The notes beneath the pieces are model-generated. The model did no database searches. It was not told where the DNA came from and saw nothing but the letters and a program-made list of their open reading frames with translations. The position numbers and the translations under genes were made by a program. Positions 51,848-63,744 of a stretch of 64,000 nucleotides of DNA are shown here, piece by piece; the stretch's first letter is position 1, and each line of letters starts with the position of its first letter. The stretch comes from Protonemura montana (lineage: Eukaryota; Arthropoda; Insecta; Plecoptera; Nemouridae): NCBI GenBank assembly GCA_947568835.1, contig OX387605.1:12962418-13026417 (forward strand), given 5' to 3'.

Positions 51848-52280
51848 ACCGAACGGTTTGGCATGTTGGAAACACCACTTCTCGTGAGATCACCGAAGTT
51901 AAGTAACACTGCGCTGAGTCAGGTATTGGATGGGTGACCGTCATACACATGACCAGTTCGGGAAAGAGGTCGGAGGTATGAAAGTTAGTACAGCAACTTC
52001 ATTCCCCTTGCTTATCAACCTCTCGACAGTAAGGGTTTGTGTAGGAATCCTACTGTTCGAGTTGTATCGTGCTTCGGAAGGGATGTTAAGCCGGTGATCC
52101 CCTAGGTGCTCTTCGATAGGAGTAGGTTACGTGCCGGCATCAGGTTTCCCCTCTTCCCTTTTAGGCTACGTTAAGTTCATCATCATCCACTCATTCACCG
52201 ATGTCATTATACCAGTGCCGCAATGGCCAGATGTCATAACAGTGCGTTGTTAAACACCACAAATCAATCAATCAATCAGA
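51848..52280 (+). mobile_element. 5S-rRNA-headed SINE, copy 1
   Basis: The first ~110 bases match 5S rRNA in order. A 5'-end block is followed by ACACCACTTCTCGT, GATCACCGAAGTTAAG, and GGATGGGTGACCG, which includes the internal control region for RNA polymerase III. A body of about 230 bases follows, then a tail (CATCATCATCCACTCATTCACCGA, split by a short repeat, and GCGTTGTTAAACACCAC) and (ATCA)n. The 8-bp target-site duplication GCCCCCAG flanks it at 51840-51847 and 52281-52288. It lies just past the likely 3' end of the FEM1-like gene. Confidence 0.88.
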
Positions 52281-54297
52281 GCCCCCAGCTTTGACATTCT
52301 TCACCAATAATCACTCAAATTTTTTAAAAGTCTCTATAGTATTTTAAGATCTGCTAGGGAACAGAAAATGTACGGCTTCCGCGTCGAATGTGCAGCAGGT
52401 AACACTAGTTTATTTACAATGCTGTACAAATAACTATATTATCTATAAAGTTTAAACAGTAAGAAGCACACATGGCTCAACATTCCTTGTAATGCAAATA
52501 TCCAGCTTTCATTACCACCTAATTTTACACCAAGGTAGAAAAGTAATGTACCCAGCTGTATGATACAATTGCAGACCACATCGCATCAGTCAACGTAGTC
52601 TTGCTCGAGTACGATTTACAATTTTCAGCTCCAAACCAATCTTCATGTAGACAGTTGTTAATTACCCTAGAGGTGTCAACCATTTGAGAGTATAATTAGC
52701 TATGTGTCATTACACTCAACGTTCACACCGTTGCCAAGTCTTCTGCATTTTGCCAGCAAAATCACAAACTCTCTGTTTGATAGAAACTTACAAAAAGATG
52801 AATAAAAAATCTTACACTACTTATATTTATGGCAGAAACAATTTAATGCACTATTCCACTCAAGGCAAAAGTTGAAACTAAAATATAGGAGATTCAGTTT
52901 ACTTTGGATATTTCCCTAGATCTAATTAGTTTGGAAGCATTCATCGTGTGGACGTTAATCGATCAAAAGAAGTTTAGAACCACTCGAGAGGGCATTATAA
53001 AGAAAATATTACAACAAATAACTTATTAAAAATTAGTCTATTTTCATCTACGTACAAGAAAAGTACAGTTTGATTAGTAATTATTGCACAAATTGGTGGG
53101 TCAGATGACATATAGTAAAATTACGCCAAGCGGCACGGAAATAACGCCGGAGGACCTCCAAACAGGGATCATGCCAGTTCATCCCAAGCTGGTTAAAATT
53201 CAATCGCATTCAACAAGATCCTTACATCCCAAGAACTCGTCATCGCACGCGCTCCGCTCAACCTACTCCGAAGTTTTGGATCCGTTCCGATACTCACGGC
53301 GCTAACGCCCAGCAGAGGTGCTGTTGGTGCTCACCAGTCAGACAGCGGGGCGAGGACAGGACCTCCGAGCTCGCTTCCGCACTGCAGGAAGTAATGGGAC
53401 GCACCCAGTCAGCTAGGGGCGACCTCTCAACCAACCGCTTGTTTTCAATTCACTGCACGATATTAGCGGCAAGGAACCTTGCTTTATGGGAATCGCGTTA
53501 GGTGGGACTCACCTGGTCAAAAAGTTGCTCCGTGACCAGTGGAAGTGTGATGGAGGAATCAGGATCAGTTTTACAAACATAGAATCAAAATGTATCAAAA
53601 AAAGCAACTAGCATTGATGCTAGTATTCTAATGACGGTTAGAGGCCAAATTGCAAGCCAAACAACACTGAATGTGGCTAACTGTTAGGAATAAACAGTCA
53701 AAGAATGTAAGTTATCACTTAGGAAAGTCTAGGTAAAACTATTGAGCAAAAGTGTTTCATACAGCTAAATTAAACTGATTGAGCCTAATGTTTAGCAGAT
53801 TTAAAAGTTGAAAATCTGGTCACGCTTGACAACATCCAGTGCACTTTGTTTGCCATTTAATAATAGGACATTCAGCAAGCACTATTCTGAAGTGCAATAA
53901 ATGAGGATTTATACCGGAAGCCACATAAATTCACACAATTGCCTTACCCACAGAGTAGCTGCGTGTCCCTAGCTGAACACAATGTTAACATTTTGATGGC
54001 ACGGAACAAAGATGCCCAAGCTATGTGAGCTACGATGAAACTATAAGACATTCATAGCTTAAAGTCAGACCAGAAGTTCACATTTCCTTTGCCTTTCTAC
54101 CGCCAGTCAAAACAACATGATGCAATGGGGAAAAGAGAGGGACTTTTGGCAACAATCCGCAATGAATCGCACTCCAAACTCGAATCTTTATACTATTTCC
54201 GTCGTCCAAGCTAGCTCTTAGCTGGCGCGTTAAGCGCTGGCGATGCACAGTCCACCACCGTTGGTGACAGACACGGCAGGGGAATTAGCGCTGGCCG
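52281..54297 (-). other. Presumed 3' UTR and downstream flank of the FEM1B-like gene
   Basis: No coding segment is supported. The first canonical AATAAA after the stop on the minus strand is at 52414-52409, implying a 3' UTR of up to 1.9 kb. A GC-richer block lies at about 53130-53520. Confidence 0.4.
52409..52414 (-). other. Candidate poly(A) signal of the FEM1B-like gene
   Basis: AATAAA on the minus strand. ATTAAA variants occur closer to the stop, so shorter transcripts are possible. Confidence 0.3.
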
Positions 54298-54562
54298 TCA
54301 GCCTTGCTTCACACCTGGCCCATGGAGCTCGATGAAGCTCTCAAGAGAGCGTGGGACGTGGCCCTGGTAAGTGAGGCCGTACGCTTTGACCGCCTTGGCT
54401 GCCATGCACTTGAGGCTGAGCCTCGTCTGCGTGCGCAAGATTATCTCCGCCACGCCAGTTGTAGCCGCCTCAAACGGCGTCTCGCCGTGCGCATTGACTG
54501 TGTCCATGTGGGCACCAGCCTCGGTCAGGTCGATGATCACCGAGTGCAGCGTTATGAAGTCG
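54298..54562 (-). CDS. Fem1b: FEM1B-like exon 4 (C-terminus)
   Basis: The acceptor TTCTAG supplies the base that completes Ser. Then comes [20 protein letters not shown], a last ankyrin, [20 protein letters not shown] and [15 protein letters not shown] ending (here [13 protein letters not shown]), with TGA at 54300-54298. This is the BC/CUL2-contacting end in FEM1 proteins. Confidence 0.92.
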
Positions 54563-62489: not shown

Positions 62490-62943
62490 CTAAAGACAAG
62501 AAAGGGTATTGTTAAACATGTGGCATAGGCACAAAAAAAGTAAACTGTGTTTAAAATTTAAGATACAAAATTCTAAGCATTTACTACCATCTATTTCCTC
62601 AGCAAAGTGTCAATAATAACACCGCTAATAATATTAATGTTACTGTCGTCATTTTTGATAAGCTAAGTGCAAAATTCACTAGATGACATAATTTAATTTA
62701 AATTTATTGTGCTGTCAAATTAGATCTATTGTTTTTAAACTGATGTTAAATTGCAAGCAAAGGCTAGGTAGAATTAGAAGCACAGTTCTTGTGTCGTTTT
62801 ATTGAACGTTTAATAAGAATTAGAAACTCACCAACAGTCTTTGCGTCAAGTCCATTGTCGTCAGCGTGGGCCAGCACTTCTTGCAAGAACGAGCAGAGGT
62901 AGAGAAACACGTTCCGTCGCTGATCGGGCAACTGTTGAGCCAG
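62332..62943 (-). CDS. Ocrl: OCRL/INPP5B-type inositol polyphosphate 5-phosphatase, C-terminal exons
   Basis: Two exons (62943-62832 and 62489-62332) join through a split Ala codon into the last 89 residues of the RhoGAP-like domain of an OCRL/INPP5B phosphatase. These enzymes remove the 5-phosphate from PI(4,5)P2 on Golgi, endosomes and the cell surface. Hallmarks are LPDQRRNVFLYLCSFLQEVL, NGLDAKTVASLFGSVFLR and RKRMGFVHHFLVND. The protein ends DLLPRW with no CAAX box, so it is OCRL-like rather than a prenylated INPP5B in this respect. The catalytic part lies right of the window. Confidence 0.88.
62832..62943 (-). CDS. Ocrl: OCRL-like penultimate exon
   Basis: The acceptor GGTGTTTAG and donor GTTG/GTGAGT bound 37 codons plus one base. 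The content is the RhoGAP-fold helix LPDQRRNVFLYLCSFLQEVL and then HADDNGLDAKTV. Confidence 0.88.
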
Positions 62944-63296
62944 CTAAACACCAGAAGAAAAATCGTTAATTGCTTCACAAACGGCAAATTGGAAAGGGAT
63001 GTTTATTTTCAAATATATACACAGTATTAGCCCAAATTTAGTGCGATATTGTTTACTCAAAATCATTTTAAAAAACAAACATTTCCATGATATTCGGTGT
63101 TTTTATGTTTAGTGAATTTTTCCTTTCATTCCTGCTCCAAATGGTTGCGTTGTGGTTGCGTGATATTGGGTTTATACGTTATTATATTACAGGATATTAA
63201 TATTAAAGAGATATTAATTATTTTTCAATTTTTAACTGCTTTAAAAAACCCTACTTAAACTTCATCAGAAAAAATTGTCGTTCATCAGAAAAATGA

Positions 63297-63744
63297 TTTG
63301 ACGATTGATTGATTGATTGGGTGTTTAACGACGCACTGTTTTGACAACTGGCCCTGCGGCACCGATATAATGGCGTTGGTGAATGAGAGGTTAATGATGA
63401 AGATGATGATGAACCTAACCTAGCCTAGAAGGGAGGAGGAGGAATCCGGTGCCGGAACGTAGCCTACTCCTGTCGAAGAGCACCTAGGGGATCACCGGCT
63501 TAAAGTTCCTTCCGAAGGACGGTACAAAACGAGCAGGATTCCTCCACAAATCCATACCGTCGAGAGGTTGAGAAGCAAGGCAAATGAAGTTGCTGTACTA
63601 ACTTTCATCCGTCCAACCTCTCACCCAAACAAAACTGATCATGTGTATAATGGTCACCCATCCAATACCTGACTCACCGCAGTGTTGCTTAACTTCGGTG
63701 ATCTCATGAGAACCGGTATGTCCAACACGCCAAACCGTTATGTT
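63297..63744 (-). mobile_element. 5S-rRNA-headed SINE, copy 3 (in an intron, minus strand)
   Basis: The reverse complement of copies 1 and 2 over the full length, with (GATT)n at the left end as its 3' tail and the 5S head at the right. The flanks AGAAAAATGA at 63287-63296 and 63745-63754 are a perfect 10-bp target-site duplication. It lies upstream of the penultimate OCRL-like exon, in the same orientation as that gene. Confidence 0.9.

Follow-up and report, generated by a model that had tools for sequence, protein, structure and literature searches.

A 5S-headed SINE family of Protonemura montana and a variant that carries tandem head modules

The window analyzed here is a stretch of 64,000 nucleotides from the Protonemura montana genome (contig C3, 12.96-13.03 Mb; genome of 258 Mb). 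Within 12 kb it holds three short interspersed elements (SINEs) whose heads derive from 5S ribosomal RNA (Table 1). A preliminary description made from the sequence alone had placed them at these positions and had credited them with a shared head, body and tail, and the mutual alignment of the three bears this out, the similarity to element 2 being 86-89%. Duplications of 8, 12 and 10 bp had also been reported at their ends. The first and the last are exact, whereas the 12-bp one carries a mismatch that had gone unmentioned. No stop-to-stop frame of at least 110 amino acids overlaps the three elements, and no fourth copy of the family was found in the window by blastn (E 1e-3). The window copies have a single head each and lie mid-chromosome. 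Elsewhere in the genome, other copies repeat part of the head in tandem.

Table 1. Positions of the three 5S-headed SINEs and of their parts in the window.
Feature	Position	Strand	Basis
Element 1, 5S-headed SINE, 433 bp	51848-52280	+	
Element 1 left target-site duplication (GCCCCCAG)	51840-51847	+	8/8 with 52281-52288
Element 1 head, 5S-derived, with short stretch up to body	51848-51983	+	5S match 51848-51963; RF00001 43.7 bits; host 5S 77/119
Element 1 body	51984-52248	+	alignment of three elements
Element 1 tail, GTTAAACACCAC and AATC repeats	52249-52280	+	alignment of three elements
Element 1 right target-site duplication	52281-52288	+	8/8 with left copy
Element 2, 5S-headed SINE	58874-59318	+	
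Element 2 left target-site duplication (ACAACAGGGTAA)	58863-58874	+	11/12 with 59319-59330; last base ambiguous with element start
Element 2 head, 5S-derived	58874-59014	+	5S match 58874-58994; Rfam 54.4 bits; host 5S 79/119
Element 2 body	59015-59292	+	alignment of three elements
Element 2 tail, GTTAAACACCAC and AAT-type repeats	59293-59318	+	
Element 2 right target-site duplication (ACAACGGGGTAA)	59319-59330	+	11/12 with left copy
Element 3, 5S-headed SINE	63743-63297	-	
Element 3 5'-side target-site duplication (TCATTTTTCT on - strand)	63745-63754	-	10/10
Element 3 head, 5S-derived	63603-63743	-	5S match 63628-63743; Rfam 56.3 bits; host 5S 74/119
Element 3 body	63330-63602	-	alignment of three elements
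Element 3 tail, GTTAAACACC and AATC repeats	63297-63329	-	
Element 3 3'-side target-site duplication	63287-63296	-	10/10 with 5'-side copy

That the heads are of 5S origin, as first proposed by inspection, holds well beyond chance, and the proposal withstands the refuting test of chance similarity that the preliminary description had set for it. In each element the match to Rfam RF00001 (gathering score 38) covers model positions 1-120. When aligned with 119 nt of the host 5S gene, some 95 nt of them in an ungapped stretch, the heads are 62-66% identical to it. These alignments have local scores of 83-89, against a maximum of 29 among 1000 dinucleotide shuffles per element. The internal promoter region is retained: 34-36 of the 48 positions of host 5S nt 50-97 are identical in the elements. 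With boxes A and C and the intermediate element (IE) placed at their usual positions in 5S, the box A region (GAAGTTAAGC) is intact in element 3 and in one copy on chromosome C1 (L062), and has a single base change in elements 1 and 2. TTTT is a stop signal for RNA polymerase III (Pol III). It is absent from the family consensus and from the tandem unit described below; by comparison, mononucleotide shuffling of the consensus yields one in 3736 of 5000 cases. The consensus would thus fit transcription by Pol III. The host 5S genes themselves (L035, L036, start of C11) lie in an array that has a repeat period of about 9.5 kb and holds three 5S copies. A histone 3' stem-loop lies beside one of them, and long runs of GGTTA/TTAGG-like repeats occur in the same array.

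The family is dispersed through the genome. A 20-mer of the tail has 2742 exact genome matches and a 22-mer of the body start 4459 (no match to either reversed control). Since the latter is exact in just 10 of the 27 tail-selected copies that have a body start, the genome probably contains close to 12,000 elements, with a wide error. A DNA search of the genome with element 2 gave 3026 first-look candidates, of which 40 were scored; of the 43 matches listed, headed by element 2 itself, 40 cover the whole element or almost all of it with 96-100% identity. Searches of a viral collection with the tail pattern and of a prokaryote collection with the body pattern gave no matches.

The copies bear the marks of retroposition. 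Target-site duplications at the set score flank 40 of the 61 distinct copies with enough flanking sequence (window element 2, which is also L001, counted once), as opposed to 2 of 362 mispaired flank pairs. By set, they occur in 3/3 window copies, 23/28 element-2-like copies and 14/30 tail-selected copies. Shortened copies have them as well: L085, which is 66 bp of the 3' end, lies between duplications of 12/12, and L087, which begins at unit position 37, between duplications of 13/13. Both keep the constant 3' end. Truncation at 5' together with a constant 3' end is what target-primed reverse transcription is expected to leave. A sub-variant with CATGGAGCGTTGTC close to the 3' end (L093) recurs towards the left end of C2.

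Two simpler accounts can be judged at this point. The three window repeats might be segmental duplicates of one locus, as their spacing within 12 kb and their likeness to element 2 could suggest. Each, however, has its own duplication and unrelated flanks, so that the insertion sites are independent, and there are thousands of other exact tail and body matches; we regard this account, which the preliminary description had itself put up for refutation, as practically eliminated. Alternatively, the 5S likeness could come from a 5S pseudogene or a 5S satellite, the element being no retroposon at all. Satellites derived from 5S exist in fish and frogs, and tandem 5S-like arrays do occur in this genome. 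The head, however, is always joined to the same body and tail in the copies parsed, and the duplications and 5' truncation with constant 3' end are hallmarks of retroposition, which makes this alternative very improbable. The sequence evidence thus supports the assignment of the family to the SINE3 type, that is, the 5S-headed retroposons.

The arrays came to light in 30 loci of C1 (L061-L090, numbered in order of position) that were picked by the tail 20-mer, regardless of the head. In twelve of them, part of the head is present at least twice in tandem. The repeated unit measures 91 bp: it begins with GTTAAGC in 5S box A, takes in the intermediate element and box C, and ends with ATGAAA immediately ahead of the body. 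It combines the last two thirds of the 5S head, containing the internal control region, with about 20 bp of the body. The units meet at AAGTTA, a word found both in the 5S part (GAAGTTAAGC) and at the start of the body (TGAAAGTTAGTAC). A 22-mer across the junction has 16378 exact matches in the genome (control 0). As it catches 42 of the 77 true junctions in the arrays examined, the count suggests some 30,000 junctions in all, or near 1% of the genome. Unit number ranges from 2 to 14 or more. The 14 units were read in L072, which is part of an array at C1:990-994.5 kb where junction matches fall near a 91-bp grid across 4.3 kb, amounting to about 48 units if the array is continuous. A second, rarer tandem form has a period of 92 bp and repeats 5S nt 1-92 (733 exact junctions); in L061 it lies within a copy flanked by a 12/12 duplication. 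Both tandem units are portions of a SINE that this genome itself contains.

Several properties of the arrays bear on when they arose. Some array copies lie as a whole between target-site duplications: L063 and L066, with two units each (13/13 and 14/14), and L077, with seven (10/11). The 5' end of L064 is inside a unit, and yet its eight units, the partial one included, are enclosed by a perfect 14/14 duplication. In 13 array copies, divergence from the own consensus averages 0.030 in the units and 0.035 in the body, and with CpG sites left out 0.028 and 0.033 (Wilcoxon p 0.45), the test being confined to arrays not cut by a locus end and excluding the rows of L017r, a nested and possibly mis-parsed locus. 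The consensus of an array is the same as the global unit consensus in 8 of the 11 arrays with at least three units (the exceptions are L025r, L064 and L073). Variants confined to a single unit are the largest class in all 11, and make up at least half of the variants in all but L064. Adjacent units differ by 4.0 and non-adjacent ones by 4.1. The arrays, then, probably existed at insertion or very soon after it and did not mainly grow later.

The opposite view is that the SINE inserts with a single head, and that arrays grow afterwards in the repeat-rich distal regions, through replication slippage or unequal crossing-over; exchange among distal copies would then mimic a lineage. The varying number of units is what such growth would give, as are the within-array distances, which are slightly under random (see below), and the variants common to several units in L072 and L064. 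There is also a published precedent of the same layout in squamates, for which such growth has been proposed (PMC10702118). Against it stand units whose mean divergence matches that of the body, a consensus that is unchanged in most arrays, neighbors that are hardly closer than distant units, and the perfect duplication around L064, which starts within a unit. We consider growth after insertion unlikely, and return to it below with the chromosomal distribution.

The arrays are not spread over the chromosomes as the single copies are. Among non-truncated loci of C1, at least two units are found in 12 of the 15 distal ones (of L061-L077) and in none of the 10 interior ones (of L078-L090; Fisher p 1e-4), with zone limits of 2.4 and 28.6 Mb that were chosen after inspection of the data. 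A junction pattern with a rare variant, which serves as a near-random sample of arrays, has 257 matches; the 100 listed, on six chromosomes (C1-C5 and C11), fall into 74 clusters; none is more than 30% away from a chromosome end, and for 57 the distance is at most 15%. Likewise, the 100 listed of the 733 junctions of the 92-bp form (66 clusters, C1-C5) lie within 23% of an end. Single copies, in contrast, occur along all of C1, although they are denser distally; 50 of the 152 heads listed on C1 are interior. The head variant common in arrays (G) is enriched distally (Fisher p 0.004) and is still present in interior heads (11 of 58 on C1). It should be noted that "distal" is the apt term for the location of the arrays, a strictly subtelomeric position not being implied.

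Location also goes with descent. A tree of 42 copies, which included 9 of the 30 element-2-like loci and excluded two diverged rows (L010r_406 and L089_2186), is poorly resolved (0 starred branches). On it the array label needs 10 changes, against a mean of 12.5 for shuffled labels (45 of 500 as low; AU p 0.07), and 6 against 10.1 when the 30 copies of C1 and the window are taken (5 of 500 as low). The distal or interior location needs 3 changes on the same 30 copies, and none of 500 shuffles (mean 10.3) is as low. Near-copies within a young interior group contribute to this signal. The distal lineage also takes in a few distal single copies (L061, L067 and L068), and L069, with two units at C1:0.92 Mb, falls near the young interior group, which makes the separation incomplete. 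For the most part, distal and interior copies appear to form distinct lineages. Location and lineage thus go together, and arrays may have originated once or more than once.

The distribution invites a further explanation, that arrays insert everywhere and are afterwards lost, counter-selected or reduced to a single unit in the interior, the distal pattern being one of survival. The difference between the zones of C1 can be read in this way, given that the divergence of several interior copies equals that of the arrays; so can the G variant, common in arrays, in interior heads. One common pool, however, does not predict lineages that are largely different. No interior intermediates with two or three units were found among the 10 loci and the 100 junction places listed, and the young element-2-like interior copies examined are all single. 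A distal lineage of its own speaks against survival from one pool, and for an insertion habit of its own or for exchange between chromosome ends. The tie between location and lineage therefore led us to judge survival less likely, and growth by recombination more likely, than before: the latter also gains from the restriction of the listed array junctions to distal regions while single copies are everywhere, and the distal clustering on the tree could stem from exchange. Survival we now hold to be quite improbable.

On balance, we think it likely that the family is a SINE3-type retroposon with an array-bearing variant, that its arrays were present at insertion or soon after, and that they belong mostly to one distal lineage. 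Some observations weigh against this view. Seven of the 11 array copies tested have no duplication above the threshold. Unit and body ages disagree in individual copies, as in L071 (0.027 vs. 0.075). The mean distance between units within arrays is 4.09, below all of 300 permutations (mean 4.66, standard deviation 0.12, minimum 4.27), and therefore some homogenization or later duplication or conversion must be allowed for; the reduction is small, and homogenization to the extent known from concerted evolution was not found in this set of shorter arrays. Elements 1 and 3 contain a run of four Ts. Finally, no LINE (long interspersed element) sharing the tail of the SINE was found in searches of the loci, by pattern and downstream of two LINE families.

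The last point deserves some detail. The tail core, with up to two substitutions allowed, has 70 matches in the window and L001-L090; 68 have the SINE upstream and two look like chance matches. A tail pattern without the upstream CC of the SINE has 161 matches in the genome (reversed control 12), and at 6 of the 100 listed a non-SINE context recurs, once with a base change. An example is a repeat at C3:27034400-27037160 (L092), which is not the SINE and ends in TCAAAACAGTGCAACGTTAAACACCACA, 33 bp resembling the SINE tail. Inspection by eye of the translated 2.6 kb upstream of it showed no reverse transcriptase, a family search not having been made; the repeat may be what is left of the partner element, or a different non-autonomous element. 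A second candidate context, AGCGTTGTC..., turned out to be the SINE variant L093 and was rejected. Nor does the SINE tail occur in the 1.1 and 1.2 kb taken downstream of the reverse transcriptases of two LINE families (1016 and 1261 amino acids), stretches that begin about 0.8 kb (L094) and 1.4 kb (L095) beyond the reverse transcriptase domain in families whose 3' ends are not delimited. None of the exact tail matches listed lies in the 10 kb downstream of the three reverse transcriptase matches listed on C1.

How the array-bearing variant might come about can be outlined as follows. Pol III would transcribe the element from the 5S-type internal promoter, from the head through the repeat-like tail, and the reverse transcriptase of a presumed LINE partner would copy the RNA into new sites by target-primed reverse transcription. 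Arrays could arise by template switching or slippage guided by microhomology, or be passed on by the copying of masters that already bear them. The variant would sit mostly in the lineage of distal copies. As a more specific and tentative idea, for which we would not claim an even chance, retrotransposition itself may seed the satellite: the LINE enzyme would jump between the two AAGTTA words, in box A and at the body start, each jump adding a full 5S promoter, so that elements with many promoters would be born in one step, and a lineage in distal chromatin, perhaps with a LINE partner of its own, would become a satellite derived from a SINE.

Some other features met in the course of the work may be recorded. 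In the window, reading frames on the minus strand at 54921-56838 contain many ankyrin repeats (Pfam Ank_2, E 2.6e-46) and presumably resemble FEM1 proteins. A pair of 43-nt inverted repeats, 72% complementary, lies at 6886-6928 and 60916-60958, 54 kb apart. On C4 (5759425-5763762; L091) there is a near-intact mitochondrial stretch from ND2 to the ATP6 region, the genes named by eye from translations, with the order I-Q-M-ND2-W-C-Y-COX1-L2-COX2-K-D; such an order is typical of Pancrustacea. Its COX1 frame requires TGA to be read as Trp and has the same score as that of contig C34. A second piece of COX1 lies about 15 kb from the stretch. Either the stretch entered the nuclear genome very recently or the assembly is at fault here.

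The ordinary copies belong to a type of element already described. The 5S SINEs described from insects include SINE3-1_TC of Tribolium, HaSE3 of Helicoverpa, and PxSE4 and PxSE5 of Plutella (PMC3272025, PMC8010984), with consensus lengths of 294-389 bp and 532-4415 copies in the published table (PMC8010984). By those descriptions they share with the present family a 5S head with A, IE and C boxes and a body, followed in Lepidoptera by a repeat-like 3' tail; the tail repeats themselves differ (PMC3272025, PMC8010984). The account of the Plutella SINEs reports a LINE that shares their 3' end (PMC8010984), whereas none was found for this family. It is the tandem promoter arrays that set this family apart. 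Tandem head modules go unmentioned for the insect families in the main texts of the two papers, where the word "tandem" is absent (PMC3272025, PMC8010984). No report of a 5S-headed SINE with tandem head modules was found among the papers listed in searches of the open-licence PMC literature, one of which listed 20 of 2,921 papers, and six short pieces of the SINE sequence, searched as text in the literature, gave one match each in two papers on unrelated subjects.

The closest parallel is outside insects. In the sSat satellites of squamates, as reported, the tandem unit likewise consists of the 3' part of a SINE head with a promoter box and a stretch of the body (67 nt in snakes), chromosome ends are preferred while the parent SINE is spread, and there is terminal SINE sequence at an end (PMC10702118). 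The snake unit has a tRNA-type box B, whereas the unit of this family spans the 5S internal control region. The long squamate arrays are described as more homogeneous; here units and body have the same average age, and some arrays lie between duplications. The first duplication is ascribed there to unequal recombination, followed by concerted evolution (PMC10702118). Several promoter-bearing units per element are also a feature of Twin (Culex), Sbg9 (Blattella) and the Dip multimers, which in the descriptions available are dimers or multimers of whole SINEs, whereas in the present family the repeated part is a sub-module of the head, found in 2 to 14 or more copies per element (an estimated 48 or so at one locus). 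Cassandra, Helenus and Ajax, too, are mobile elements with 5S rRNA-like or other small-RNA sequence; they are described as long terminal repeat (LTR) retrotransposons (PMC10886601), and no LTRs were seen around the window copies.

In closing, the family adds a 5S-headed SINE to the few known from insects. The origin of satellite DNA is an open question, and the clearest published link from SINE to satellite that we found is reptilian (PMC10702118). The same layout, a promoter-bearing part of the head with the start of the body, repeated near chromosome ends, is met here in an insect and with a different class of promoter. The age of the units relative to the body makes the choice between arrays born as such and arrays grown by recombination directly testable. 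The array copies of P. montana may thus show a route from a jumping element to satellite DNA.

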